Source of the DNA: Beverwykella pulmonaria
Lineage: Eukaryota; Ascomycota; Dothideomycetes; Pleosporales; Melanommataceae
Direction of reading: 5' to 3'
Assembly (NCBI GenBank): GCA_001599595.1
Contig: BCHH01000005.1
Coordinates: 1,123,552 to 1,187,551, forward strand
DNA: 64,000 nt
The notes under the pieces are model-generated. The model was not told the DNA's origin and made no database searches. It saw only the letters and a program-made list of their open reading frames with translations. The position numbers and the translations under genes were made by a program. Shown piece by piece: positions 1-19,797 of the stretch (position 1 is its first letter; each line of letters begins with the position of its first letter).

Positions 1-1909
1 GTAGAATTTTCGACTGCACTTTGAGCGACCAGCTAATTAGAGAACATGTATTTAATTTAACCCCCACCTCTCCCAACTCATGATACTACTTTTGGCAGTC
101 TAAATGACACGGAAAACACCATTGGAGCGGAAAGAAAACTTGCGAAAAGCCGCAACGCCGGTCCGGTGGCTCAAGCGACCTTTAAGGCGTTCGGTAGTGT
201 CAGACTCTCTACTAATGGCTGCAGGTGAACCATTGGGTGTTAAAGAAATCAGGACATCAGTGAGATGTGGCGCTTAAGGCTGAAAACTGTTCGCCATGAA
301 GAAGATGGAAATTAAGAGATCAAACTGCTCAACCCGACCGTGTCGCAAGTCAGACACGGGGTAACCTTCTCAGTCGAAGGGGTGGGTAAATTTAGAAGAT
401 GATGAGTAAATCACTTTCATGTCAAAGCGGAATTGCCCTATTTTATTTGTCGCCGGTCTTACGGAAGATTGAACGATCTTTCCGCCGCTACTTGAAATCG
501 ATATTGATATCGAATGTCTCGAGCTGCGCCATAACACCGAGTACATATCACACGCATAATTTTTTTTGTAACTCTAGTAACGTCACTGCAATGTGCACAT
601 TTCATAAGCTACTCTGAGTAAGATTACCTATTAAATATCACATAAAGAGCATACGGCCTCCCTAATTCTTCCCCACTCGAAGTTTGGCAAACCCTTTGGC
701 GACTATGGCATCAGAAGGCCCTTGGTTTATCCGACGAAGCGTTTGTAAGTGACAGAGTCCCACTTCGAACTTTTTTCAATTTCCAAGCTGTCCACATCGG
801 TAATCATGGGGCACTCAAATAACTGTTGCATTGTCATCGGGATTTGCTTGAACGAGTCTACCAAGGTATTACCTGGTTCGTGCCATACACAACTGTTTCT
901 TCTTCTCATTGAACTACTGCAAGGACTTCACTAGCCGCAGCTTGATTTTCCAGGGCCATGCACTTAATAAGGATTTTAAGGAGTTGCAGTAAACAGGGGG
1001 TGGATGTTGTATTGCCAGACGATATTCGCCATCACGCTTGCATTTTTCACCCTCATCCACAGTTGTATAGGGACAATGACGGTATCCGGCCTGGCGTTTC
1101 TGAATCAAAATGACCAGATTCCCACCATCGAATACCTTGACCGGAAGCTCAACGCATCTGCAACATATTTTCATGAGTTTAGTTGTTGGGCCTCATGGAT
1201 TCATGACCTAAGAGCTGCTTGAAAGCAGTGAGGGAAAATGGGGTTTCCACATGGTGAAGTGAGAATAGATCTTGAAAAAGAAGCCCATAGCAAGACCAAC
1301 TTCGTACCATGTCGCGGAGCATCATTCCAAGTAAAAGTCCTTAAAATAGAGCTAATAATCAGTAGTTAGTGTCAGAGGGATTGGCAAGATTTGAGTAAGT
1401 CGAAGACTAATTCAGTGGCCTAGCCAAGTCAGTGAATGCAAGCCGTAGATAAGTAAGCGGTACAGATAGTACCTGAATATAGCCATTCACTGTGCAAGCA
1501 TAGTGTCAAGAGAATAGAGACACCGGGGATTTCCTCACCACTTGTCCCATGCACGCACCTAATGGAATAATAACTTCTACGACACACGGCTATTGCAATC
1601 AAACACCAAACAAGAGACCAAGAGATAACAGACCAAACATTTTATCGATGAATGGCGACGACCACCGTTGAAATCCGTTCCTCTTACGGCAAGTCATGAC
1701 AAATTCTATTTGCTGTGAAGCATGCGGTGGGCTGAGATCGTGATTGAAATGGTAGCAGTCATTCAGTAAAAGCGGTTAAAACAAGCGAGACACGAAGTGG
1801 GTCTCTTCTTGTTAGCTCGATATCATACCTCCCGAACAACATCTCAATCACGCCTTTAAATCGGGCTGTGTGGTATCGCCTAGACTTTTGCTCATCTGAA
1901 GGTTATGGA
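1..1909. other. Gene-poor stretch left of the hAT-like element
   Basis: No convincing gene is visible. Short ORFs occur on both strands (for example minus 914-1174 and 727-909), but none shows a domain I recognise and none joins to a neighbour by plausible splice sites. The minus-strand ORFs at 727-1174 contain a few cysteines and could be relics of a decayed gene; I cannot support that further. Confidence 0.4.
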
Positions 1910-3022
1910 CAGCGTGGTCAACGTACCGTAGTACGCCATACAATTACGGACCGTAATGGTGAATTGCTCCGTACGTACGTAACAGCCATATGAGCCGTAC
2001 CGTAGCCGTATTTGTATATAATTTGTCCCGTAATTACGGCTGTACGGCCGCCTTCTTAAGTGGTATTTTGGCTATTTTGGCAGTTACTTTTAATGTAACA
2101 CAACGCCTGAATCACTAAGCGTCGCAGGCTATATTCCCTTAAGTGTTTAGCTAAACCCAACGCAGTAACTTATTAACCTTTGCATACAAAATAGAGCAAT
2201 ACTTACAATCTTAGGCTTTGCAATCATCTCAAGCTTTAGCCGCGTATACGCCCTATTATACTGCCACGCTGAGGAGAGCTTTTAAAGCTTCTACTAGCCG
2301 CCTGCTATTACTGTCACGTATATCACGTGTTCTACTATGTCACGTGTATCACGTATGTCACGTGTCTCACATGACATACCATATGTCCTATTCTAGCTAG
2401 CTCACCCTTCATGGGTATATATAGTCGTCGTGCGAGCAGTCAGCTCTTCACAGCTTTCTCACTCTTTATACACACTTTCCATCAGACAGTTGACTTCCGC
2501 CTCTACTTGTGACAGTTACTAGAGCTATCTTAGCTATCTTAATCGTGTGAGAGTACACTAGGCGTTTTTTTTAAGCAATCTTATGAGGCATGGTGTGACG
2601 ATATTATACATCGCCAGCCCCTAAAGGCACTCAGGCAGGCTACGGGCCAGCCACGGGCCAGTCACGGGTCCTCAAAATAATCACGTGACTAAGTCAGGCT
2701 CACGTGACCTCACAGAAGTATATAACCTTCTCAACGTTCCTGAGTCAACCTCAAAGATTCATCTCAATACAATAATACACCTATATTCAAGCCCTCTACT
2801 TACAAAACTCCTCACACAAAGCTCAACACCAAGAAAACGATCACCAATTACCTAATTTGGAAAGTGCTATACGCTCCGTAGCGTGCCCTGGATGTCCTGC
2901 TACGGTTACGGACCGTAATCCACCTTTTTTGGCGGTCGCCGTACGTACGTAACCACCATACAAGCCGTACCGTACAGCAACAAGGACCTCCCGTACCGTA
3001 CTACGCTACGTTGACTACGCTG
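1910..3022. mobile_element. Non-autonomous hAT-like DNA transposon (about 1.1 kb)
   Basis: The element begins CAGCGTGGTCAACGTA at 1910 and ends with the near-perfect inverse at 2997-3022; 24 of 26 terminal bases match as an inverted repeat. It is flanked by an exact 8-bp direct repeat, GTTATGGA, at 1902-1909 and 3023-3030. An 8-bp target duplication with termini starting CAG is the hallmark of hAT elements. Both subterminal zones are rich in short TACGTACG/CCGTACGG motifs, as hAT transposase-binding zones often are. No transposase ORF is present, so it could only move with a transposase supplied elsewhere. An LTR relic is nested inside at about 2312-2514. A promoter-like stretch with a TATA motif (tatataacc, about 2718) precedes the right end. 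Confidence 0.8.
2312..2514 (+). repeat. Solo LTR (copy 1), nested in the hAT-like element
   Basis: It starts TGTCACGTATATCACG and ends CTTGTGACA, the short inverted TG..CA ends of an LTR. The core (CATATGTCCTATTCTAG, tatatatag, GTGCGAGCAGTCAGCTC) is shared with copies near 27690, 54981 and 60539. Flanking pentamers are attac (2307-2311) and gttac (2515-2519), 4 of 5 matching, which fits a decayed 5-bp target duplication. The left part holds extra TCACGTG repeats, so the true start could instead be 2356. No internal retroelement sequence follows. Confidence 0.65.
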
Positions 3023-3030
3023 GTTATGGA

Positions 3031-3524
3031 ATACTTGATAGACTTAGGCAGGGCACATAATCCTGCCTTAGATCCCAGCCTCCTCCCCGCTACACCTTTG
3101 GTATGGCAATAGCAACGATGATTATAGCAAACCGATATCTATCAATCCAAACGATGGTTGTCTCATACACCTAGAAAGTCTCTGAATAACCCTCATGGCC
3201 TTGTCTTGATCATAGGTGTTGGGATAATGCCGGCACGCGACACCCATACCACAGGTCCACAGCTGGGCACCTATGACTCGGCCTCATTACCAAGGATACA
3301 CAGAACATCCGCCATCACCATGAACTCACCCGTATCATCTGGTATTGGTAAATCTTTCCAGAATTTATGCAACTAGTTATGAGATAACGAAACCAGTTCT
3401 CAACAACCATGGACACGTTCTGTCTACACCCAGCTAGTTACGTTCAAGGCTGGGGATTAGAAAGACGATTGGACTATCAAAAACTTGAGAACTTGTAAAT
3501 AGAGGACTGTCCAGCCCTTGGCTC
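3031..3524. other. Spacer with no visible gene
   Basis: I see nothing coding here beyond short ORFs, such as 3158-3376 on plus, with no recognisable features. Confidence 0.4.
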
Positions 3525-5774
3525 ATGAGCTGGACCCTCTTATTTGACATGAGCCAAGCTTTCGTAGAACCTTCAGACTTCACTTTCGAAATGCCTGACA
3601 ATACCTCGATGGAGGAACGTCAGCTTTCCCAAGGCTTCCTAACACAGGACACTCGCAGACGGTTGAGGCCATCTCTGATCGTTCTCTTGCAATTGATAGA
3701 CCCTTTCTAGACCCTTTCGCGGTCAATGCCGAAAGTTGCGTAGATATTGGCTTTACGTCTTCCGCCAGTCCATTTCACCACAAACGAACGACGCATGAAC
3801 TGCATGGACGGGAATCTTCGAGCACTGCCACGATTTTGAAAGGTAGTAGTCTGGCGCCTCCAACTCCTTTAAATCTTGAGGAAATGCCTCGGTGCCGTTA
3901 CTGGCAGCCACCGAGTATCAACTCTAATCAAACTCCTGGTGAGAAAATCCCCTTGCCGACTTAGATATTTCTCAGATTGCTCTCATTGTTTAGAAGTCAA
4001 GGCAATCCAGCTAATCTGCGCGTTCAAAATTCGGGATCAAAGCCTCAATTCTGGGAACACGTATGGAACGGACGACAATTCTCAACATTCAGTGATCTCC
4101 TACGGCACCAAGGGGAGATATCCGGTCGTTCAGGATACTCGCATCAGGGTGGAATTCACACCAAACGGGCGAAGGTTCAGCTTCAGTAGCCAAGTCTCAG
4201 CAGGAGAGATTTTCCAGCTACAACGCCGTTCGACGATGAGCAGCGAAATTTTCCTAACAGTAATCTACCACAAGTTAAGCATGCCCGACCAATTTTGCCT
4301 GGGAGCGCATCAACTTGGGCCCTGTAATCCCCTAACAGTCCCCGAGGAGATTTGAGTCGAGCTATTTCCGCAGCCAGTATACAGAGTCGCCAAGGTAGGA
4401 TCAGTACGAGGCCTTCCAGTATACAAAGTAGAGCTAGCTCAGGCCATGGGGAATTTATCTTCGAAGCCAATCCTACGCGCTCCTCAAGCAGGGCTTGGGC
4501 GGCTTCTGGACGGCGCGGCCCACTGGACACAATCGCTGAGGCCGGGATGAATGCGCTGAAAAAACTGAGGGCATGCTGGCGGTTCAAGGTTCTGAAAAAA
4601 TTAGTACGTCTTTTGGATTAACATATTTGTTAAGCTAATTGAATCTATTTAGTCCAAGGATGAGACGCCTTGTCCCGCGTGTTCTGAGCGAAATCAAGAC
4701 TCCCAGTGGCCAGCTTCAAACTGTGATGCGTCCTATCATTCTGTGTCCTCGCGCGATAACAGACCGCCTCATCCAACCATCAGTTACCTCACCAGTTACT
4801 AGCCCCTAGATCACTAACGAATCTGCCGAGAAAGCCGAAGATGCAGCAGGGGATTTGGATCTTACTGCACTGCTTCCGGGCGACCTAGTCTCATCGACAG
4901 ATGAAGCACAGGATAAAAAAAATGGTGACACTGTCCGACGCAGTGACAGACGTGGAAACTTTTGCGTCTTCTTTTGCAACAGCTTAGAAGCCTCTTCACG
5001 AATGTACTATCAATATTCACCAGCATTTAATTCAGTGCCCTTGGATGAAGAGGATGGTGCGGTCTCTACCTTCATCTACCAATTTGGACAATTTATAATT
5101 TTGTGGATATGCTGAATTCTGCTGCGACCTACCAAGCCTACTGCTAAACTGTGAGTGTGAATTGATTCAGCTCGTTGAAAGAACTGACCCACTTGAAAGG
5201 ATTAATTGGTTGCTCAAGCACTCATTTGTCTGCGTATTAGCCTCGAAGTCTTGCGTAATAAATTGCGCCTTCCTACCTGGTACGAGCATCTTGATTATCA
5301 CGGGCAGAGTAATTACAAGATCAATAATGTCCCTGAATTACAGATTCCATTGGCTAAATACGTCGAAGAGCTCTCGCAGGTATTCTTCAAGAAAGAGAAT
5401 CTACGAGGCACTGATTAGTGGCTTTCAGCTAATAGCCTTTGCTTTCAGGGTTCGTTCAGGAAAGTACTGTGCAGCATAATTACAGCAGGCGACGTACCAG
5501 AGCATATAAAACTCCTTCGAAACAGTATTTGTATCTGGCCGTTCGATTGTTTATCGCCAGGTCCGGATCGTATGACCCATTAGTCACGGAACGGGACTCT
5601 CAAAACAATCAGGCAGAGCCTTCGGTCGTGTCCCACTTCACAACTGCTGATATTTATTTAAATAAATCCTGCTGGAGATCGCAGAGAATTTCCAGCTCTG
5701 CCGATTCTCTTCAAGGGCTGTTCGAAGACAAAGGAGAATCCTTGGAAACAAATGAAACGAGCCAACAACCCTAA
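3525..5774 (+). pseudogene. Decayed fungal Zn-cluster-type regulator
   Basis: Several frames together spell a family I recognise from filamentous fungi: Ser-rich region, then GRRGPLDTIAEAGMNALKK, then an ACWRxKxLKK cysteine cluster (about 4490-4600). A likely intron (GTACGT at about 4600 to TTTAG) leads to PCPACSERNQ. Later come a helical stretch (ISLEVLRNKLRLPTWYE, from about 5230) and YLYLAVRLFIARSGSYDPL (about 5520-5580). It is broken: in-frame TAG at 4187-4189, TAA at 4325-4327 and TAG at 5416-5418, plus at least one frameshift between 5420 and 5520. A cluster Cys reads Phe (CWRF instead of CWRC). The first two stops are each one C-to-T change from Gln codons. The left limit is approximate. 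Family assignment rests on motif memory, not a search. Confidence 0.55.
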
Positions 5775-6639
5775 AGTACTGCAACCTCAGTCTGCAGCGA
5801 TCTTGCAAAAGAAGCAATCAAAGTGGGACCCACAAGAAGACGTTGAAATCATTAAGCTTCGTGGTAAAGGCATGAAATGGGACGGTATTTCAAAGCATTT
5901 ACAAGGATTTTCGGCGATCTCCTGTCGCTTGAGATACCAAAATTACCTAGAAAAGAGCTTCACATGGGACGAAGAGAGGAAGAACAAGATCTCAAGATTA
6001 TACTCCAGGTAAGAATTGGAGCCCAAAACAAAGCCTAGGAACTATACACAATAGAAACACTCTGGGTTGACTTTAATACAGATTCAAAGAGCAGATGTGG
6101 GAGAAAATTGATACGGAAATGGGAGTACTCTGGCCGTCAGCTGAGATTCAGGCATGGAAGCTCGGCCTACGGGAGATAAACACTCGTTCGAACGCTCCCA
6201 TCTTTCCGTCAAGAACTACCACATTATCATCCTTGTCACCCTTTCGTCCCTAACGAGTACTATTGATGCCCATGTAACTCCCTTCATGCAAACCAGCGTA
6301 ACAACTGTATTTACATCTGAGGTCAATACGCCTACCAACCAGTCTCCAGGTCCAATACATATGGCCCCTTCTAGACAATTCAGCATTCAAATCATGACGA
6401 CCAAGAACCAACAAGGACAAGATATCCACCCTCCAGTCGAAACCTCAGGACCATCAAAGCTTCGCGAAGAAAGGAGCATACGCAATTTAGAGGCTTCCGC
6501 GAGATTCCGAGCTCGGAGGAACGAGAAGGAACGGGAAGCCGTACTTAGGGTACTCGAACTGGAACAGCGGGAGCGAGAGTCTACACGTAGGATATCTCAT
6601 CTAGCACAACGGGTTCATGACGCAGTTGAAGATATATAA
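5752..6639 (+). pseudogene. SANT/Myb-like domain gene with a bZIP-like tail in another frame
   Basis: From ATG 5752 the protein reads through a Myb/SANT-like module: KWDPQEDVEIIKLRGKGMKW, then ISCRLRYQNYLEK, and WDEERKNK. A clean intron (GTAAGA at 6009 to ACAG at 6081) joins it to FKEQMWEKIDTEMG, the usual continuation of this family. That frame then stops at about 6252. In a different frame, 6154-6639 encodes NLEASARFRARRNEKERE followed by a Glu/Arg/Leu-rich helix, which resembles the bZIP basic region of the Met4/Cys-3 type (NxxASARFRxRR). I found no good intron linking the two frames. Either there is a frameshift or two genes overlap. The locus lies next to another broken regulator, which favours decay. 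Confidence 0.5.
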
Positions 6640-8100
6640 TATTACCATAGCGAGAGAGACTACTTCAGATCAAGAGCTGGTCGAGACGAATTTTCCGTAC
6701 GACCCCTTTCCCCATGGCGATGGTGAAGAGACATCGCACTCCGCACCTTCGGTGTTCAACAATACACTAATAACAATATTTAGTGCGCACGCTTGGAATA
6801 AGTGTGATAATTGTCGATCATAACGGCTACACAAATCATGCTAGATGTCATATCGGTCCCTTACAATATCAACACTAACCTTAGTAGGTAAGTTTTGAGC
6901 AAGTCTAGGCCAGAACCGACCCTACAATGTAGCATTTTCACAGATCAGGAACTAGAGCATATGCAGAATCAACTTCAGACGCTTCCCGCTCAAGCCCGCA
7001 CTCTTTACCGCAGGCGCAAGGTAAAGTGACAGGATACGAGATCGTGCAATAATTGCTGAAGGCTTAAGAAAGACTGTCATTTCACAGACAGACCACTTCC
7101 AAAGTAGCTCCATGCATGGATTCTAGCGAATTTCGGAAAAGACAGTTGGTTTTATTAGTCGGCATCGGCCACGTTGGGTTGAGTGGCATAATGATGGCAC
7201 GGGTAAAGCACAAGCCATAGCTGCGCAGAGCGATCAGAAGCAAGGACCTGCACGGAATTTCTGGTATCTAAATACGATATTCGCTGCACTAAAAGCTAGA
7301 TACATCTTACTGTTCCTGCAAAGCTCTTGAATAGAGTTGTATGGTGTGACTTATTGTATGGTCCCCGACAATGACGGTTGTCTTCTGACAGGTTAACAAA
7401 CATCTCGGACGGCACAACATTTGATGTCACCCTTGCCAATGGTGGTGTGAGGAGTATTTTGACCCTCCATCTTGGATCTGGTCAGAGGTTTCCGATCTCT
7501 TTCAAAAAATGTAAAACGAAGATGGGCTCCATCTCATTATCTCCTTCGTATTTACGAAGACCATGGATAATTATGAACCCTATTTAGCCGGACAGAAGAG
7601 ACCAAAGGATATGCTCAATGATGCCTTGGAGATGAGAGGGGTAGTATTGAGAAATGCAAAGCATCTGCTGGGTGAACGTTGAGGCATGGGGATATTGCAA
7701 AAGCTGATAGATCAAGGCTCGGAGAAGATATATAGAATGACCCTAGTGTGGAAGATGAGTCTCTACAGAAGAATTGGAGCACTACTGCTCGAGATGCCTT
7801 CCGTATTCTGTCAATCAAAGTTGTGGCAACGAGGGCAAATGTGCGAGCCAACTCAATATTGACGGCATTCCGACGAAGAAAAACGATTCCAGAATTGTTC
7901 GATTGGATCCAGTATTTTGAATCAAGGATGCTTCAGCACCTGTTGCACTAGGTAACCGCTCTGCTGCGAGTTCCGTGGGCCATGAGCGATCGCTTGCCTG
8001 GACTGTTGACTGAGGACTCCATCATCCACATTAATGAACTATACTACAGCCTTCTTACTTGCTTACATGGGTGCTTGTATAAAGAGCTAGATCGCTAGCT
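6640..8100. other. Stretch with no supported gene
   Basis: Short ORFs (6617-6823, 7378-7587, 7748-7951 on plus; 7615-7851 on minus) have no recognisable domain. A small open segment after a possible acceptor near 6945 (QELEHMQNQLQTLPAQAR) may be the tail of the preceding decayed locus. Confidence 0.35.
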
Positions 8101-11100
8101 AGGATACTAGTGGTGTTGGAGTGTTGCACCTGGAAATCATCACTTCAATCGCTTCGAATTTGGATCACATTGCATCAAGTAGTCTGCCATACTTATACAG
8201 CCGTACATTACATACATCATACACACCACACCTACATACACATCACACCTACATACCAAAACACATCATCATACCACCCTGCTTACAGAAACTATCAAAC
8301 ACAAAACGTATGGAAAGTACTCTCAAATCTTAGACTTTCATACTTGGATTAAATAGCGAGGAAAATTCCTCTTTCGGTATAATGTACTCACAATTCTCGC
8401 TCAATTTATTTGATCCGCCAATCAGAGAACGGGAGGGTAATTACAAATGCAAATACATACACCCATACGTGTCCACGTTTTCAAAACTGCAGCCTCGGTC
8501 TCCGAATACGCATGAACTAGCCTATAAAAAAGATAGCACAACAATACCGAACGGCTGTTGACAATCTTGTCGGGCATCCAACCCATACCCCTGCAAGTCC
8601 CTATTTGGCATCCTTCCAGAAGAATCTTCGATGGCTGACATGCATGGGTTTCCTCAACGATGACTGGCCAGTCAGCCACCGAAGGCAAAGACAATGATGG
8701 CGCAAGCCTGCACCGCAGCAAGCAATAAAGCTCGGCCATCATAGTATCCATGCTCAAGTGCCTTACGGACTTCCGTGCGGCCACGTTTTCGACCCATGAT
8801 CCTTCCCTCGGCAAGTTGTTCCCATGATCTTGTTTCGTGGGCTGAAGGCGTGAATGACTTTCCAGATTAGGGGTCGAGTACGAGATTGTAGTACAGGGTT
8901 AGGCAACAGAGACGAATAGACAAAGAAGGAAGCGCCAGGCTTAGACAACGCACTCGGATCTGACCTATCCGCGGGTTTGAAGCAGGATTGGAGATATACA
9001 TGTATGCTAATTTGGAGTAGAAAGCGCACGTGCTCCTTGATTGCGTACTCTTCTCTGCTGTTTATAGAAATACGGACGCTAGTTATCTCAAAAATGTCTG
9101 CTTCGTAACACAACATGTAGACAAACTTCCAATCTAATAGACCCTCCGTATTCATCGGCTTTCGATTCCAAAGTCGTAGATATGCTAGATCCCAGCTAAG
9201 CCCTCCATAACACGGGTGAATAGAAGTGGAGATCCGTACCGTTCAGTCGGGCGCCGGATCCCGACTGATCGCATCTGACGTGTGTGGAGCTGGGGCTTGG
9301 AGCTTATGGTGTCTAGCATGTAGTACGGCAAGCATGATCCTTGGGTTGAAGGTGGGGATGCGGATTCCACGTGGTGAAGTTTGATCTTGTCATGGAGGTG
9401 AGTTGGTTGCCTGTTCACTTAGTTTTCGTCTTTGGTTTAATCGGGATGTGAGCGCATGAGTGTACGTAGCTTGGGGAACCAAGGCGTGCTTCGCGGAATA
9501 TACTAAAATTTGTTGGCTTTTGAATTCGTGCGAGAACGTAGGTCGATCTGAACTCTGAAACGTTGAATGCAAAATGTATTGCAGTATATTGTTATCTGCA
9601 ATCATACATGTGACTTGGCATGCAGCAGTTTCACAGCAACACACCGAAATGACTCCTATTCTCGCTACAGAGAAATAGGAAGATGCGAGACAGTGATGTC
9701 ACCTCTATCCCAGACTAACAAGCCATTGGGGGCGGAGTGTTTGCTGCGTACTTTTCGAACTTCAACTTTAGATGGCGGTGTGGATGTAGTAGCTGGCTGA
9801 TTTTGTGACGCGAGGCCCTCCAGAATCCTTAGAACTTTATCCTCGACGTCGCGACGAGCGCGCCCGACGTGGATTGCTTACCTATGGAGAACTCAATGGG
9901 GCCAAAGTGACCCTCAGGCGTGCTGCATTAGTCATAACCGGTAGTATTCATGATCCTACAGATAGAGGATTCCGAGCTATGAGCATTAGGCGACAGTGCG
10001 GCTGCGCTTATGGCGTTAAAATGTTTTAATCACGAAGGATGGAAGGAAGCTTACTATTTCACACGCTGGGAAACAGAAAAAGCGGCGTGAGCTTCGCGCA
10101 GAGATTATGTGAGAGATTGTATCGTTGATGGCGTAGATGTTGAGGTGGTACGGGACGGGCCGTTTGCATGTTCAAGCTGAGGAGAGGCAACAGGATATTG
10201 GCTACTGTGGAGCGTTGGTAACATATGTACATTGAAGATCACACGTCATCGCAGAGCGGATATTCTCGAGGAAGAAAGAAAGTAACAGAGACTTCAGTAC
10301 TTTACAAAAAGCTTCATATGAGAGGAAAACGTATACCTCGGTTTCCCTTCGCCACTACCAACACCCACTCCCCCAATGACGGGTACAATTATACATTCCC
10401 CGATAAATTTTTCCTATAAAGGAATATTGTGTTTAACAGCAACCGTCAACGGTCTAACATCAAGGAAAAGCAACACAAGGTTTATTTGAGTCTTTATGCA
10501 TAAAGGCCACGGCGCTCGCCTCTATTGACATTGCAAAGCTTGTCTACGCCAAGGTATCACAGTCAGCCTCGGTTCTCAAGTAAAAGTCAAGGGTGTTGAA
10601 GATAGTATCTGTAAACGTAAGAATAAAGCACAGCTTTTACACGTAAAAAAGCGCCAATGATTAAACACAAGCTTCTGTGTAATTCACTCATGGAATGCAA
10701 CGTCGGTAGCCCTAAACTGATTCTTTAGACTTGTGTCAAGATATAACGTTATATAGAATTTGAAGGTCAATTTTGCTAGTCATCTGCGCGAACAAAAATT
10801 GGGCTCCAATAGAAAACTCAAAAGGGAAATGGAAGTAAAAAAATGATATCAACGGATTGGAGAGTGAGATCGTGCGGGTGATTAGGACACTTTGTCAGCT
10901 TTATACGCTATGAGGTAGTTTCATGGCGAGCACCTGATAAGAAATGGAGGTAGGAATACGTGTGGACGGAGAAGGGGGAGGAAGATACACAATGCCAGCC
11001 ACACACATCTCGAAGTCCCGAACTTTTCCATATGAATAGCTCGAGGCAAGCCGTGATGACACCTTCCTCGCTGTCGAGGAACAGTATATTATTTGCTATC

Positions 11101-11217
11101 TCATCAGCACCGATTTATCTCTCTATACCCCCAAAGCGTTGTCGTCTCTGAAAGTCCGGGCTCGCCGACCCGTCTCTTTTTACCCAGTCCTACCTTTCGT
11201 GTAGATCTCCACAAACA
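8101..11217. other. Long gene-poor stretch with a CA-rich patch
   Basis: Bases 8205-8275 are a CACAC/ACATAC-rich, low-complexity patch. Several ORFs of 60-130 codons overlap on both strands (for example minus 8422-8814 and 8763-9155), with no recognised motif, no start context and no splice pattern. I cannot support a gene here. Confidence 0.4.
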
Positions 11218-11319
11218 ATGAGTAATGCCTCCACTCCCCTTCCACCTCTAGACTTCCCATCGCCCGACTCACTTAATAATCCACCACAGTACCCTAAAAA
11301 TCTCGAATCTAGGGAGTGA
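11218..11319 (+). CDS. Possible small gene or first exon (33 codons)
   Basis: The ORF starts in a strong fungal context (acaaacaATGAG) after a pyrimidine-rich leader that looks like a transcription start region. It encodes a Pro/Ser/Asn-rich 33-residue peptide beginning MSNASTPLPPLDFPSPD and ending at TGA 11317-11319. The stop overlaps a GTGAGC that would serve as a splice donor; joining to an acceptor at about 11390 would add roughly ten residues. No family recognised. It may equally be a chance ORF. Confidence 0.25.
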   Translation: MSNASTPLPPLDFPSPDSLNNPPQYPKNLESRE

Positions 11320-14300
11320 GCAGCGAGCGGCTGCGTCTATTCCAAGACATGACTGCGGCGCCGATCAGGTACATTCTTAGCATAGCCTCTACCGATCAGG
11401 TAATTGTGGTGTAACACCGACGATCTTTCAGCCTTACAAGAGTGCGAGGCTGTCATATCATGTCAGCATGATCTCCTCCCCTTCCCCCTCCCCGAATTTT
11501 AGATGAGGGTAGTACGGAGACCCCGTGCCCATCTTTTCTTTTCGTAGGCAGTGCTGGTGATCAGGGTTATTGAAGTTGATTGAGATGCCGATGCCGATAT
11601 CGATAGTTTACGCGGTGCAATATTGCGAAAACGGCCGAACGCATGCCTCACTGTATTGCAATGCAGAACCTAGCCACGAGAACGAGCTCTCGGAACAGAG
11701 GGTGGTGGATCGATGATGCACAATGACTCGGAAGGCTGGTGCCTTGATCGGAGTCACTCTTGCGGGGAGAGCATGTGTGCGAGCCTCTCAGAAGACCGGG
11801 GCGGGACGGAAAGGAATGTGAAACAGTACACGACGTCTTATTCTCGTGGCGTGTGATCAATAATTATGGCATCGGCGGGATGAGCCGAGAGGAGGATGTC
11901 TCATGTCTAGTACGTGTGGCACGAAGCTAGCGGCCCGATCTGTGCAACGAACACCTGTTCGTCACTTTTTCCTCTTTCGACTTGGGTAATTCGGTACTGT
12001 GAAACAGTTTTCTTGGAGCTGCGTAAGTCGACGCAAATTCCGACTTAATGTCGGAACGGATATAGCAACGCTGCGCAAGGCTTTTTTGACCGGAGGTAGA
12101 GATGAAGCATGCGTAAATGCAGCATCATCTCTGTGCGATGAGGCCACGGGCGAGAAAAGCCAGGGGCTGGATGCCTCACTCCATATCGTTGTGGCATCGT
12201 GCATATCGACGATTTCAAAGCAGCCCTTCTAGAAGAAAAGCCCTTTTAGAACAGAAAGGCCGTAAATCAGCCCAAAGCAGTAATCCCTTTGACCTCAAAA
12301 TAGACTACATTTGTCTCGTTTCCAAGAAAGATACCTTTTTCGTGGGCTGACTTGCATAATTATAGGTAATTGCCACGCCTTCTATCCAATGAAAACCTTC
12401 AGCTGCCCTCCATAACGCTAGATAAAGGTGGTAAAAAGCGTAGCCGCTTCGGGGCAATGGCTGAGATCATTTTGCGGCACAGTCATTTTCGTCAGCCCTA
12501 TTGTAGGGATGCAACGTGGGAAGATCCCTGTGTAAGCGCGCCTGTCGCGGCTAAATCATCCGATCGGTGGAGGGGCTATTTTTGGGTCTCGCTATCGCGT
12601 GAAGGAGCTGAGGGGGGCAGAGGGTTCCTGCAGCCGTGACATTGAGTCGGGTCTGCGCTACTGTGTTTTGCGAGGGAGACGGCGATTATGGGAACAGGGC
12701 TTGGATCGGCAAGGTTGGAGTGCCCACATCGATTCTGTGATGCAGCTTTTCCATCTGCCTCGCCAGAAGATATCACCGCCATGCTCTCCGAAGTCCATCG
12801 CCCCCGAATCCCATGACAATAATGATGCTGGGGATCAGTGTGCCCGACTGGGCCCCTCGTGCTCCTCTCCCTTCTTATTCGCGTGCAACTGTCACCTCTT
12901 CCGCCGTGTTTCGGCCCCAAAGATAGAATAATCCAGGACCGTAGTTCCCCAATCGATACACGTCCCGTGCTGTCGGGAAGCGACATGCAGTCCCCATGCT
13001 GGCAACCCTCGTGGCTCGAGTGGTACAGACGAGGCTCAATCCCGGCGCCGGAGCGAGCCAGCCTTTAGGAACGGAGAAACGTAAAGAGGAGTGGTAAGGG
13101 AATGAGGTGAGAGGGCCGGGGACTTAGAAGGAGGCAATCCAGTGGGGAAGAAGATAATGCAGGCTCTAGTTCTGGAATACATTGGAGATTTCTAATCGGA
13201 ATGATGGAGTTGTTGTGGTTGGTGATTGGGACTTGCGTGACTAGGGTGCGAGTCTTGATCTCCGAATATTGATTGGAGCGTGGGATGTTGGTCCGTGCGT
13301 GAGTGAATGTCAAATTATTTTCGGCATTCGATTTCAAACAGTATTCATTTCTATGTTGTGTTGGCATTGTGCAGTTCTGCCTTGTTTGCCTCCTCGGTGA
13401 CGAGGGAAGGCAGATGATACAGGCTCGGTGCCAATATCTTCAGCAGACCCGTTACAGCTACACGTTGTGAGAAGCTGCGCAGACACGGACGCTGTAAATT
13501 GTAGAAACGCTCGGCGGCACAGCAACCTCGTGTTCGTTTCCTAGCAGCGGCCACCATTCCGCTCCGGGGGAGCGCCCAGATTTGCGACTGCGCATTGGCG
13601 AAAATCGAAGCCATTGACAGCTGAAGCCACCTCGCTCGAACATGTCTGCTGAGGTGGAGACGTTCGTGCTTTACTGTTGCAGCACAGGACGCCGGAATCC
13701 TCGCCAAAGTTGCGTGCGCGATGCGACTGGCCCATCCCACTCTCGCCTTTCACATCTTCTCCAACTTTCCAACGGCCAAGATGAGGCAACTGGAAACTGT
13801 CTTTCAGGCACTCGGTGCCCTCGCACCGCCATGCGCTGTATTCCCAAGAAATCGTTATAGCCGAACCATCGTTTTAACACTGTCATTCGCTGCCGAGAGG
13901 GGAAGACGATGCGAGGCAAGCCTACGAAACTGGCAAGCGGTGCTGCAACGTGGTTTCGACTCGGAACCAAATTTGCCTTCCGAAGCAACACACCACACAG
14001 AGGGCAAAGATGCACACAAGGCGCGGCTCCCCATTCGGCCATGAATTCATCGTCATTCCACACTGATCTTGACAAATGTCCGCGACAGTCGAGGAAAATG
14101 GAAGAGCGCCAAACCACGCTACACGGCTGGCCGACGATCAACGGCGCGCCCGTGACGATCTAAAGATTGGAGATTTACAAAGACGGTGTAACGGCCGCGG
14201 ATGGGTGAATCTGCTGAAACGGTGTATTCGGATGACGTGGATTTGAGTTCGACCAACTAGAGACTCGAAAGCGCCTATTCAGTGAAGGGGATCCCTGCCG

Positions 14301-14880: not shown

Positions 14881-15288
14881 TTTGGGTTGAAGGTAAATGT
14901 TGCTTCGTTATAAAGATGCCTGCCAGGCACTCAGGGCAGGGCATACCCTCCTCCCACGCCGCACTTCACATCAGTCATTTGGTCATAAGGACGCCTCCTT
15001 CTACCTATCCTATTGCATTCCTTCCCGTTTATAAGTCTGCCATTTCTTTGAGTCAGTCGTTCAGTCATCAGCTTTCGTCTTCCGCACTCTTCCATTATAT
15101 CGCCGGCCTCTTTCTACCTTGACTCCTTAGTCTTCGACTCATCGCATTTATATCCCCGCCGTTTTATCTCTCATCGTCAGCACTACCCGCCCTACAACGA
15201 CGGTACAGCGCCACGTTTCCGCTCTATACTCACTGAAACGCATCGACTTCAGCAACTTCATACCATACTCGAGTTCATTGCATTCTCA
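14881..15288 (+). promoter_or_regulatory. Promoter and leader of the micro-ORF transcript
   Basis: The segment has the look of a strongly expressed fungal promoter: ttataaag at about 14908, then a long C/T-rich, purine-poor run (about 14990-15190) with several tttata/ttatatc motifs, then an A/C-rich leader leading into the first micro-ORF at 15289. No long ORF competes with it. The transcription start is not determinable by eye. Confidence 0.45.
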
Positions 15289-15312
15289 ATGGGACGTGGA
15301 GGCTACAACTAG
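15289..15312 (+). CDS. Micro-ORF 1: heptapeptide MGRGGYN
   Basis: Eight codons: ATG GGA CGT GGA GGC TAC, then AAC TAG. The start context is tctcaATGG. An identical peptide is encoded 70 nt downstream using different codons for all three non-final Gly-family and Arg positions. That pattern is expected if the peptide, rather than the DNA, is conserved. It lies at the end of an A/C-rich leader. Function unknown; it could act as a uORF, as a signalling or structural peptide, or as a ribosome regulator. I do not recognise it as a named gene. Confidence 0.65.
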   Translation: MGRGGYN

Positions 15313-15382
15313 TCTAAGCATTCCAAAACTCGAGCCTCAAGGCACCCATCCTCAATACACACCAACACTCTACACCATCACG

Positions 15383-15406
15383 ATGGGCCGCGGCGGATAC
15401 AACTAA
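15383..15406 (+). CDS. Micro-ORF 2: identical heptapeptide MGRGGYN
   Basis: Codons are ATG GGC CGC GGC GGA TAC, then AAC TAA, in the context atcacgATGG. Compared with micro-ORF 1, four of the six sense codons after Met differ, all synonymously (GGA/GGC, CGT/CGC, GGA/GGC, GGC/GGA), and the stop differs too (TAG/TAA). The two micro-ORFs are in different reading frames (94-nt offset), so they are two separate ORFs and not one repeat-bearing protein. The stop codon runs straight into a strong hairpin. Confidence 0.65.
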   Translation: MGRGGYN

Positions 15407-15427
15407 GAAGAGCCCGTGGGCTCTTCT
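15406..15427 (+). promoter_or_regulatory. Hairpin abutting the micro-ORF 2 stop codon
   Basis: AGAAGAGCCC (15406-15415) pairs perfectly with GGGCTCTTCT (15418-15427) around a 2-nt centre; in RNA the loop would open to CGUG with a 9-bp stem. The first paired base is the last base of the TAA stop. It may affect termination, reinitiation or mRNA stability. This is seen in sequence; the role is inference. Confidence 0.5.
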
Positions 15428-15474
15428 ATAATCGAACATTCCACGACGCCCCCCTTCGCAATTATATTACAATC

Positions 15475-15597
15475 ATGATATCTCACTTCATCAAAACCGC
15501 CACTTCCCTCGCAACCATGCCACCTCGTACACATCTCCACCCACGACCACCACCGAAGACACTTCGCAAGAAACGCGTCGAGCGATGGCGAATCTGA
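15475..15597 (+). CDS. Small basic ORF (40 aa) downstream of the micro-ORFs
   Basis: ATG 15475 to TGA 15595-15597 gives a 40-residue peptide, Pro-rich then strongly basic at the end (KTLRKKRVERW). It sits 68 nt after micro-ORF 2 with no new promoter visible, so it could be the third ORF of the same transcript. An internal Met at codon 15 gives a 26-residue alternative. No family recognised, and a chance ORF is possible. Confidence 0.3.
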   Translation: MISHFIKTATSLATMPPRTHLHPRPPPKTLRKKRVERWRI

Positions 15598-16675
15598 CTC
15601 CCTACATCCGATTTCTCCTTTCTTTTCTTCTCCTTAGTTTTGGCCCGTGTTGCCAAGTTATTTGTCCCTTTCCCACATAGCGTTTCTGTTCGCACATTGT
15701 ATTTCTTGTTTAGAGTTTGCAGCCTGTTTCCTTTTGTTTTCCTGTCAGCATTCTAGCAAGCGATGGAGTCAAGGTTTTAATAGAGTCACGGACACGATTT
15801 ACGGATCTACAACCATGGCAACGGCATAGGCATGGGATGGGTGGCTCGATTCGAGCTTGGATAAGCTTGTCAGCCACGCGGCGTTTTTGATTTATAGACG
15901 GGTATGGTATGGAGCGCTCTTCATTGAGCCACGGGTCTTCGACCTCTCCCCCATTATTGTTCGCATTGGATATCCACCTCTCAGCCGTCCGCTTTGGCTT
16001 TTCTTGTTCTTTGTAGCGTTTTGTCCATTTATTAGAGAGTAACGATAGGGCTGGCCCTGGTCGCATTCCAGGCGGGCACTGGGGACCACACTCATCCTCC
16101 GTAGTGATCCAATCCACATATCCAAGACATATATCTTTATTGTGCTGTGTCATACTCCGCTCGTCTCGTCTCGTCTTGTCTCGCGATGCTCGGTACGGCC
16201 TTCGTGCGGCTTGAAGAATGGACTTGCTCGCTCGACGCATTTGCTCGCTACTTTCCGACGCAGAATCTAATTTCACAGAACCGCCAAATCAGTCTCAACG
16301 TCCACAAAACTAATCAAATTATGGAGACCGAACGTGCCACAAAACGGCGTGGGACGGGAAGTGGAGCCACGCGCCGTTGAGAAACGGGGGACGCAACGGC
16401 AACGGCAACGGTGGAGACGGGTGGATAGCGAATGCTGTGCCGCGCGCACACCCAACACGCCTCATATGGGCCGCCAACTCTATATGTCGCTATAACGATT
16501 GTGGCTTCCTTGTACGCAAAGCGGCACAGTCAGGCAGCGTTGGGGCGTAATCGATAAATGTTGCGCACAATGTGAGACAACATAGCGTTCTTGTCATGGG
16601 ACTCGGGCCTTATCGATGCGAAGGATTTCGCCCGAAGGGTGTATGACTAGAGTAGAGTGAAACTAGGGAGAAGAC
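15598..16675. other. Likely 3' region of the micro-ORF transcript, then spacer
   Basis: Bases 15600-15780 are T-rich with many TTTG/TTGT motifs, like a fungal 3' untranslated region. ORFs at 15710-16276 (minus) and 15857-16380 (plus) have no recognisable features. Bases 16390-16415 contain a short GGCAAC repeat. Nothing else is supported. Confidence 0.35.
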
Positions 16676-18457
16676 TTACTTCTCGAATACAACACCTAAT
16701 ACTTCCTCGACATCGTCGCTTTCACTCCGACCCGTGATCCTCGCTAGGGTGTCTGCAGCTAGGCGGAGTGACTCGGCGGCTACGACGATGTCAACCTCAT
16801 CCGCACCTTCGGGACGGGCAAGCGCGTGGTTAAATGGGTCGTGGGGCGTTCGCAGTTCGGAGTGCACATTCGCAACCATGTGGGTATTGGGTTGAACTGC
16901 CATCAGGAATGCCTCCAGATGCTGGAGACACTCGGAGAGCAAGACGCGTTGGCGCTCAGTTGCGCCGAGAGACTCTTGCCAAATGGACGGGTCGGGCTCT
17001 GAGTCGGGAACGAGGGCGGCGGTTATATCTTCGAAGGTGTGAATGAGGCCTTGGAGAAAGCACTGAATGTTGCCGGGGTCTTTGCTTCGAGACACTGCGA
17101 CACTGGACGTTGTAGCTTCTTTACAGGACACAAAGAATACACGGTCAGCAGGAACACCCAGTGCAGAGTGCATCTTTGCCCTCCAGTCTGACAACGGGCA
17201 CGGATATGGCACCTGGTCGATCTTGTTGATAGCAACAACGACACTGATGCCCCGATCAACGCACTGCTTCGCCGTCTCGGTGACTTCGGGATCCATCTCG
17301 GCTGTGGCGTCGTGGACGACGATAAGGACGTCTGACTCGAGGGCTCGCTGCTTGGCGCGCTTGATGCCTTCTTGCTCTACGGCGCCGACGACATGGGGCC
17401 CTACGAGTCCCGCTCTGCGTAGTCCAGCCATGTCGCCAATTTTGACTAGCCATCCTTCCAGGTCGATGCCCACCTCGACTACATCCCTTGTTGTTCCGGC
17501 CTCATGGGAGACAATGGCCGCCTCTCTTCCCACGATGCGATTGAGAAGACTGCTCTTGCCCGCATTGGGGGCACCGAGGAGGGCGACGCTGATGCCGCTC
17601 CGTAAGAGCTCGCCTCGAACGGCATTGGCGACGTGGGCTTCCATGTGCGTAGTCAATTTGCGCACCTGGGCCGCAACAGAAGCACACAAGGCTGATGGCG
17701 ATTCGTCAAAGTGCTGGTCTTCCGAGAAGTCGATCAGTGCTTCCAGCTCGCCGCGAGCCTCCAGCAAGAGCATGCGCCATTCTTCATATCGCGCTGCGAG
17801 CGACGACGTTGTGCCGCGCACCGAGAGCTTGCGCTGCTGTTCGGTGGAGGCAGACAGGGTCTCCCCCAGCGACTCGATCTGGGGCAGGTCCATGCGATTG
17901 TTGGCAAAGGCGCGGCGAGTGAATTCGCCAGGCTCAGCGTATCTGATGCGAGCCTCACGCGGGCCTTGTCTACCATTTCGAGAAACGCATCGAGGTATGG
18001 CGGCCAACACGGCACGGACGACGGCAGGCCCGCCGTGGACATGAAATTCGAGCACAGGCTCGCCTGTCACGGTATGCGGTGCGGGGAAGAACAGCACGAG
18101 GGCGCCGGAATCGAGCAGTGTCGAAGGCGACGGCGGGACATGGGGCGTGTAGAGCCTGCGGAGGGCGGCATAGCGAGGTTTGGGAAGCGGTGTCGCGGGA
18201 CAGAGGCCCTCATAGATGTCTCTATAGGCTGGGCCTGAGATGCGGATAACGGCTATCGCAGCCTTGCCACTGGCGGTGGACAGCGCGTATATGGTGGGCT
18301 CATCGTAGCTGGCGGGGACGCCAGAGTACAGTCGGTGCTGGAGTGGGCGGCTCAGGCGCCGTGGTATGCGCGGGGAGAAGCACTGAGCGGGCGGAAAGGG
18401 CGATCGTCTGAATGATACAAGATGGGCTCGGCTAATTGACGGGATGAATACTCTCAT
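16676..18457 (-). CDS. MSS1: Mitochondrial tRNA-modification GTPase (MnmE/MSS1 family)
   Basis: The 593-residue protein belongs to the MnmE/GTPBP3 family. With the MnmG/MTO1 partner it modifies the wobble uridine of mitochondrial tRNAs. The first 45 residues are Arg/Ser-rich, typical of a mitochondrial targeting peptide. The TrmE N-terminal domain follows (TIYALSTASGKAAIAVIRISG). The G domain shows GAPNAGKSSLLN (P-loop), GTTRD, DMAGL (DxxG) and NKID. I chose ATG at 18455-18457; an upstream ATG adds 70 residues that would place the targeting peptide internally. Oddity: the family usually ends in C-[IV]-G-K, but this frame ends VVFEK just before a stop embedded in AAGTAAGT, a perfect splice-donor sequence, so a short last exon may be missing. 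Divergent from MAK16. Confidence 0.92.
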   Translation of the reverse strand: MRVFIPSISRAHLVSFRRSPFPPAQCFSPRIPRRLSRPLQHRLYSGVPASYDEPTIYALSTASGKAAIAVIRISGPAYRDIYEGLCPATPLPKPRYAALRRLYTPHVPPSPSTLLDSGALVLFFPAPHTVTGEPVLEFHVHGGPAVVRAVLAAIPRCVSRNGRQGPREARIRYAEPGEFTRRAFANNRMDLPQIESLGETLSASTEQQRKLSVRGTTSSLAARYEEWRMLLLEARGELEALIDFSEDQHFDESPSALCASVAAQVRKLTTHMEAHVANAVRGELLRSGISVALLGAPNAGKSSLLNRIVGREAAIVSHEAGTTRDVVEVGIDLEGWLVKIGDMAGLRRAGLVGPHVVGAVEQEGIKRAKQRALESDVLIVVHDATAEMDPEVTETAKQCVDRGISVVVAINKIDQVPYPCPLSDWRAKMHSALGVPADRVFFVSCKEATTSSVAVSRSKDPGNIQCFLQGLIHTFEDITAALVPDSEPDPSIWQESLGATERQRVLLSECLQHLEAFLMAVQPNTHMVANVHSELRTPHDPFNHALARPEGADEVDIVVAAESLRLAADTLARITGRSESDDVEEVLGVVFEK

Positions 18458-18666: not shown

Positions 18667-19797
18667 ATGGCTTCCGACGATCTGGTGTGGAATATCATTG
18701 GGACTGACTTTTGTGCGTCTTATCCTTCCTGCGGTTCTATCTAGCCTCTCGCGATATACGCTTCATTCTGCAACGAATACGGTAGAGCAATGCAGCTAAC
18801 AGATGGAACAGGCGCCTTCAAGCTCAAAACCTCCAAAGACCAGACGTTCTGTAGAAACGAACACAATGTTACTGGCTTCTGCTCCCGTCAGGCCTGCCCG
18901 CTCGCCAACAGTCGCTATGCTACCATTCGCTCCGATCCTGCGACGGGCAACCTCTACCTCTACATAAAGGCCATCGAGCGCTCGCACCTGCCCTCCAAGT
19001 GGTGGGAGAAAATCAAGCTCTCCAACAACTATACAAAAGCCCTCGAGCAAGTCGACCACGAGCTCAAGTACTACCCCAAGTTCCTGGTCCACAAGAACAA
19101 GCAGCGCTTGACCCGCCTTACTCAAGTCAACATCCGCATAAGGAAGCTCGCAAAGGAGGAGGAGCGTCTGGGTGAGCGTCTTGTGCCTCGGCTCGCGCCA
19201 AAGGTGCGGAGGCGAGAAGATGGCAGGGAGAGGAAGGCGCTGGCGGCTGCCAAAGTCGAGCGCGCAATCGAGAGGGTCTTGATTGATCGCTTGCGGAGCG
19301 GTGCCTATGGAGACAGACCCCTCAACGTCGAGCCCAACGTCTGGAAGAGGGTCATGGCCGGCTTGGAGAAGGAAGGCCAGGCTACTCGCGACGAAGACCT
19401 CGACGATGGCATCGAAGAGGAGGACGAGGGGGTCGAGTACGAGCAAGAGCTAGAGAACGGCGTTGGGGACGTTGAGTATGTGAGCGACATCGAGGGCGAG
19501 TCAGACGACGATCTCGAGGATTTCGAAGACTGGGTTGGTGGCCAGAGCCCAGACGAGGACGAGGATGACGAAGACGAGGATAGCGAGAGCGCTAGTGGGA
19601 ACAGCGAGGAAGAGGATGGATCAGAGGATGAGGTCGAGACGCTCCAGAAGAAGCTTGCCAGTCTGAAGCGAAAACGGCCGAGCGGACCCACCCCCAAGCC
19701 GAAGAAGAAGTCTTCCAGGGATTCCAGGGGACCGCGCATGGAAATTGAGATCGAGAGAGAACCTGCTCCTCGGGAACGGCAAACGATTCACCGATGA
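18667..19797 (+). CDS. MAK16: Ribosome biogenesis protein MAK16
   Basis: Exons 18667-18712 and 18812-19797 are joined by a 99-bp intron (GTGCGT..ACAG) and give 343 residues. The first exon reads MASDDLVWNIIGTDFC and splices into AFKLKTSKDQTFCRNE. The protein then follows yeast Mak16 closely: NVTGFCxRQxCPLANSxYAT, IKLSNNYTKALxQ, LTQV, APKVxRRE, RERKALxAAK, and LRSGAYGDxPLNV. The Cys residues in the first 50 positions form its zinc-ribbon-like fold. The C-terminal third is an acidic Glu/Asp/Ser stretch followed by a Lys-rich tail, as in the family. It acts in the nucleolus in 60S subunit assembly. The length matches orthologues. Confidence 0.97.

Follow-up and report, generated by a model that had tools for sequence, protein, structure and literature searches.

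Two identical heptapeptide micro-ORFs and a matching motif in a calpain tail: a putative micropeptide gene in Beverwykella pulmonaria

Two micro-ORFs in the genome of the pleosporalean fungus Beverwykella pulmonaria (Dothideomycetes) encode the same heptapeptide, MGRGGYN, and without its methionine the peptide, GRGGYN, is the exact hexapeptide that recurs in the tail region of a calpain encoded by the same genome. They lie in a 64,000-nucleotide stretch of contig BCHH01000005.1, the whole of which was analysed and is called the window below. Peptide-level selection on MGRGGYN is well supported by the comparison of the two copies, resting as it does on one pair. Two observations are new here, namely the equality of the micro-ORF peptide with the calpain-tail motif and the inverted repeat that follows the second stop codon. 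Our preferred reading, held with somewhat less than even confidence, is a short, stand-alone polycistronic micropeptide gene on the plus strand, whose free GRGGYN would act in trans through a partner of the calpain tail. More tentatively still, the entire product of the gene could be a bare short linear motif that serves as a competitor or a signal for the reader of the calpain tail.

Table 1. Features at the micro-ORF locus, in its neighbourhood and at the calpain locus (window positions unless a contig is given)
Feature	Position	Strand	Description
ATG-free stretch upstream of micro-ORF 1	14917..15288	+	372 positions; presumed promoter and 5' end
Micro-ORF 1	15289..15312	+	ATGGGACGTGGAGGCTACAACTAG; peptide MGRGGYN; stop TAG
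Spacer, 70 nt	15313..15382	+	no ATG; little structure, -3.6 kcal/mol
Micro-ORF 2	15383..15406	+	ATGGGCCGCGGCGGATACAACTAA; peptide MGRGGYN; stop TAA
Perfect 10-bp inverted repeat	15406..15427		AGAAGAGCCC-GT-GGGCTCTTCT
Third ATG ORF, 40 aa	15475..15597	+	inner ATG 15517, 26 aa; negative codon score
MSS1 / MnmE mitochondrial tRNA-modification GTPase	16676..18457	-	convergent with the micro-ORFs
MAK16 exon	18745..19797	+	open frame; Ribosomal_L28e and Mak16 domains
Calpain C2 open frame	C3:255236-257749 (locus L022:1737-4250)	-	Peptidase_C2, E 2.4e-42

The two ORFs reported by the initial annotation, each MGRGGYN followed by a stop, are present at exactly the positions in Table 1. Its statement that four codons and the stop differ silently is also confirmed: the copies differ at 5 of 24 nucleotides (positions 6, 9, 12, 15 and 24), that is, at four silent third codon positions and in the stop codon, and none of the differences changes the peptide. 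Four random substitutions within codons 2-7 would all be silent with a probability of 0.0018, and five in codons 2-7 and the stop with a probability of 0.00022. The start codons are 94 nt apart, hence the frames differ. The surroundings and the 70-nt spacer are as unlike as had been claimed. Ungapped identity of the flanks is 23/60 on one side and 17/60 on the other, and their local alignment scores were matched by 283/1000 and 342/1000 shuffles, so that the 60 nt flanking either micro-ORF are no more similar between the copies than shuffled sequence. Codon scores of the micro-ORFs (-0.9 and 2.5 bits, where alternative frames score as high as 1.7 and 4.0) are uninformative, as the ORFs are too short for codon statistics. 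A nine-residue plus-strand ORF, MGRQLYMSL, at window positions 16466-16495 starts with the same nine nucleotides as micro-ORF 2, which is likely due to chance.

Taken with the uniqueness of the pair in the genome and the lack of such pairs in simulated sequence described below, this silent-only divergence gives good support to the earlier interpretation that selection acts on the peptide itself. A cis-acting uORF role would likewise select for the peptide.

Micro-ORFs 1 and 2 begin at the first two ATGs after the ATG-free stretch, and the 40-aa ORF begins at the third. Among about 2,290 ATG-to-ATG gaps on both strands of the window, this stretch is one of two that reach at least 370 nt. It is pyrimidine-rich and TG-poor, and the depletion of ATG is weak evidence because the low TG content explains much of it; the dinucleotide composition predicts about 3.1 ATGs in 14919-15474, where two are observed. 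A TATA-like TATAAG was spotted by eye at 15030, and we infer a promoter role for the stretch. The start context of micro-ORF 1 is weak (T at -3, G at +4) and that of micro-ORF 2 is stronger (A at -3, G at +4), so leaky scanning could feed both.

The inverted repeat starts at the final base of the second stop codon. As RNA it folds into a stem of nine pairs with a four-base loop (-14.6 kcal/mol). Trimmed to 36 nt around the stem, the RNA has a folding z-score of -4.27; a 76-nt piece that includes micro-ORF 2 reaches only -1.69, and the piece around micro-ORF 1 has -1.86. The window holds three perfect stems of at least 9 bp with loops of 2-10 nt, this one among them, and a genome search that allowed two mismatches found no second copy. 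From its position, the repeat may help in choosing the start codon of micro-ORF 2 or in terminating there; it is equally possible that it acts as a DNA site instead.

Downstream of the pair, a protein search with the 40-aa ORF found no homologue in a database rich in Pleosporales proteins; the power of this search is low, as three exact 5-mers were required and small proteins are often unannotated. The ORF is probably not coding. In unspliced frames, the longest plus-strand ATG ORF between 15407 and MSS1 has 64 aa and a codon score of -3.5 bits. A consensus splice scan gave only weak donors between 15300 and 15640, such as GTGGGC at 15416 within the inverted repeat; the acceptor-like sites of the scan end at 15252, 15637 and 16278, and it revealed no convincing intron near the micro-ORFs. 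With no credible downstream ORF or intron, we thus find no main coding sequence that would make the segment a leader. It had been described as leader-like, and this stands insofar as the micro-ORFs take the first two ATGs after the ATG-free stretch; it is not supported by what follows, as no convincing main ORF was found before the convergent MSS1 gene. MSS1, presumed to be the right-hand limit of the micro-ORF transcript, has its best named relatives in Melanomma pulvis-pyrius (80%) and Pleomassaria siparia (79%), both of which belong to Pleosporales.

On the left side, the seven open frames of at least 150 aa between 3.8 and 14.9 kb of the window gave no Pfam matches. The left part of the window, positions 1-14000, has a lower GC content (about 45-47% up to 12 kb), the six open frames of at least 150 aa found up to 14.2 kb of the window are likewise without Pfam matches, and this part is probably gene-poor or repeat-derived. 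Neither an Rfam search at gathering scores nor a tRNA scan gave any hit in the window.

The order of the ATGs, the shortness of the ORFs and the stem directly after the second stop codon would all fit cis-acting uORFs, in which the nascent MGRGGYN, or the ORFs as such, control the flow of ribosomes to a downstream ORF. The duplication and the stem after micro-ORF 2 would then tighten the block. There is a fungal precedent in cpc-1, where reinitiation is governed by a short uORF1 of 3-6 codons (stop included) and a second, unlike uORF of 35-70 codons behind it (PMC5487733). The micro-ORFs resemble the uORFs of cpc-1 and GCN4 as very short ORFs at the head of a presumed transcript; they differ in that the same peptide is encoded twice and that no downstream bZIP main ORF was found in unspliced frames. 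Peptide-dependent attenuation is also known in fungi, the arginine attenuator peptide being a regulatory uORF. In comparison with such uORFs, only the 40-aa ORF lies close downstream here, and with its length, negative codon score and lack of a detected homologue it is an unconvincing target. The weak splice signals of the consensus scan and the convergent orientation of MSS1 offer no better one. Moreover, control by reinitiation could work with two different peptides, and the identity of the peptide with the calpain motif would be left unexplained. We regard a cis-acting role as unlikely, though it is the main rival of the preferred reading.

The favoured reading, a trans-acting micropeptide, draws on the match to the calpain. 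A genome search with the six residues after the methionine returned 14 places, two of which are GSGGYN since the pattern admits serine codons. The tail of the host calpain contains four copies of GRGGYN and four of GRDGYN. In the genome-wide listing, GRGGYN occurs in more than one copy only in the calpain and at the micro-ORF locus, and in the whole genome it stands immediately before a stop codon only in micro-ORFs 1 and 2.

The motif is retained in the calpains most similar to that of the host. Exact GRGGYN is present in 45 of the 120 listed homologues, in up to nine copies; it is found in 36 of the 37 best-scoring homologues versus 9 of the 83 others listed, some of which are fragments. Each of the 37 best-scoring homologues has two or more GR[GDS]GYN units. 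These units total 298, against none expected from shuffled tails, and no hexamer is repeated in more of the 37 than GRGGYN (36/37). Outside this nearest group the motif appears in a few others, e.g. five copies in Coniosporium apollinis. With one mismatch to GRGGYN allowed, 316 windows are found in the 37 best homologues. Within these near-matches five positions are 97-100% constant (G1 in 315, R2 in 316, G4 in 316, Y5 in 309 and N6 in 307), while G (209) or D (99) fills the third in almost every window; loosening the match to four of six positions adds only four windows, for a total of 320. The residues that flank the motif vary, the commonest one before it being Gln (161/298). Nearly fixed positions next to varying neighbours make the motif sharp-edged, and the micro-ORFs consist of exactly Met, the hexamer and a stop, so that their limits coincide with those of the motif.

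The GR[G/D]GYN array of the calpain is apparently an unnamed short linear motif. The open-licence full-text literature yielded no mention of MGRGGYN or GRDGYN. For GRGGYN, judging by titles and the openings of abstracts, the open-licence matches concern drug carriers and nuclear import, and no motif name was found there. The main text of a paper on septal pores (PMC10023807) has no occurrence of the word calpain. In the rice blast fungus, calpains are important for development and for the integrity of the cell wall (PMC4977516). An AlphaFold2 model of one calpain homologue (P0123) has no secondary structure at array residues 671-772 (pLDDT 32-38 by block), in a model that is poor throughout, the catalytic region included (pTM 0.32, mean pLDDT 48.7); disorder of the array is likely.

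Chance agreement with the motif has to be weighed against this conservation. At equal codon use, six random codons would spell GRGGYN with a probability of about 3e-8 by our own arithmetic, a value that would stay close to 3e-5 even if a proteome had a thousand conserved repeat motifs of this kind; both figures are for a match that was noticed post hoc, of six residues and from a Gly-rich class common in disordered proteins. Single copies of GRGGYN also occur elsewhere in the genome, in RGG-like or disordered-looking ORFs, one of them an RGG-rich tail. A long disordered-looking ORF with a single copy is reminiscent of eIF4G, and a Pfam scan of four ORFs with single copies gave no match. In addition, a 236-aa open frame without a Pfam match (C3:2600999, minus strand; locus L013:1396-2103) carries RGRGGYSGPLEHGRGGYNG; with GRGGYN and GRGGYS, it may be a second protein in which the motif occurs twice. 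One GRDGYN outside the calpain, at C2:1929182, looks fortuitous; the frame there is open for 14 codons.

We also compared 3,801 micro-ORFs of 7-30 aa from a 264-kb sample with the set of 37 calpains, which contains 10,626 distinct 6-mers. At least one 6-mer was shared by 29 of them, the MGRGGYN pair included. Sharing a 6-mer with calpains is not rare, hence unspecific, and counts against a link to the calpain. The pair stands out because the 6-mer that it has in common with the calpains is the one that they repeat almost unchanged, and because this 6-mer accounts for the entire peptide.

The single copies in RGG-like ORFs, the post hoc nature of the match and the 27 other sampled micro-ORFs that share some calpain 6-mer would be expected if the locus were a trans-acting micropeptide gene with no relation to the calpain, its match being a Gly-rich coincidence. 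This reading accounts poorly for the exact identity, boundaries included, with a motif nearly fixed in the 37 nearest homologues, or for the restriction of multiple copies to the calpain and the micro-ORF locus, and it also seems unlikely to us. Motif identity, shared boundaries and retention in the nearest homologues together suggest the link to the calpain.

An old tandem duplication under selection at the RNA or DNA level, for instance as an RNA-protein binding site, or the remnant of a gene with GRGGYN repeats, would explain why the stretch TACAACTA is common to both copies without differences and why an inverted repeat lies alongside. Such an origin is improbable. All five differences fall at third codon positions, the stop included; the copies are flush with ATG and stop, in different frames; and the 861-nt segment 15040-15900 has no match in the rest of the genome at E 0.001.

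The pair is unique in the 45.6-Mb host genome, where a degenerate 24-mer for MGRGGYN and a stop has exactly two matches, both at this locus. The reversed pattern, used as a control in the same genome, gave none, and neither did the degenerate pattern in 100 shuffles of the window. As a further control for chance, a collection of prokaryote genomes contained three matches, one per stretch and none paired; viral contigs also contained three, one per stretch, in a scan with a looser stop (TRR). A genome scan for further MGR-x-GYN-stop micro-ORFs recovered only the pair. With up to two mismatches one extra seven-residue ORF was found, MGRGSDN at C1:1845256. None of the short ORFs on that strand in the surrounding 800 nt or so resembles it; we take it as chance because the reversed control also gave one match.

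Identical peptides in neighbouring micro-ORFs are themselves exceptional. The host sample of 264 kb comprised the window and 20 ten-kb regions, on both strands, and the MGRGGYN pair is its sole same-strand pair of identical 4-20 aa peptides at most 300 nt apart. In 76 Mb of Markov-simulated sequence, scanned on one strand, two identical pairs were seen at four residues and none at five or more, in agreement with the initial annotation's view that random short ORFs would not repeat seven residues. Genome-wide uniqueness and the simulation, empty at five residues and above, argue that the pair is not due to chance and that what is preserved between the copies is the peptide. Thus, abundant as micro-ORFs are (3,160 of 5-20 aa in the 264 kb), a chance origin of the pair is very improbable, given that the sample holds no second one, the simulation none of five or more residues, and the genome only these two matches with neighbouring starts.

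Under the preferred reading, a small plus-strand gene from about 15050 to 15800 would encode one peptide twice. We infer a transcript with these ends that is translated from both micro-ORFs. Ribosomes would reach micro-ORF 1 first, at its weak start context; micro-ORF 2, with its better context and just 5' of the stem, would be used by ribosomes that miss the first start or take up scanning again. Removal of the initiator methionine would yield GRGGYN from each. The free hexapeptide, acting in trans, would bind the reader of the calpain tail, and may compete with, complement or prime the recruitment of the calpain. A partner of the calpain tail is the most likely target because the peptide has the same motif, GR[G/D]GYN, so that peptide and tail would share one partner.

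Several known systems share features with the proposed gene. The tails of C2 calpains, chiefly of Pleosporales, have the exact hexamer with the same boundaries; there it occurs in many copies in a long protein, and here it would be free, with its own start and stop. In the arthropod tal/pri/mlpt genes (tarsal-less, polished rice, mille-pattes), a single 1.5-kb polycistronic mRNA carries four smORFs that share LDPTGQY and encode peptides of 11-32 aa (PMC11475943). In both cases several smORFs encode one core peptide, here two ORFs with an identical one, and the ATG order at the micro-ORF locus is compatible with a putative polycistronic transcript of this kind. The fungal locus differs in lacking the LDPTGQY core and in encoding two identical 7-mers. 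The initial annotation knew of no described gene with two identical seven-residue ORFs; this needs qualification, since tal/pri smORFs also share a core, and it holds in that the tal/pri peptides are of 11-32 aa and are not identical heptapeptides (PMC11475943).

Short repeated GRGG motifs also occur in DUF3602/Par32 (Amu1) proteins (PF12223; three matches in the host genome). Most copies in these proteins read GRGGAGN or GRGGTGN, which has an extra residue and lacks Tyr at that place. Membership in this family was rejected, as the peptide has no residue between Tyr and Asn. Fungal RiPP precursors have repeated cores in one ORF, a signal peptide and basic cleavage sites, and were rejected too, as the cores here are separate seven-codon ORFs with their own stops. 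A literature search on tandem or identical-peptide micro-ORFs in fungi brought up nothing relevant among the open-licence matches listed.

Translation of MGRGGYN would place it among the shortest gene-encoded peptides on which selection acts, and the locus would then be, to our knowledge, the first fungal counterpart of tal/pri. If the proposed function is true, the genome would encode a protein-interaction motif separately from its parent protein. The calpain motif offers an immediate handle on this, as peptide and tail should then bind one partner.
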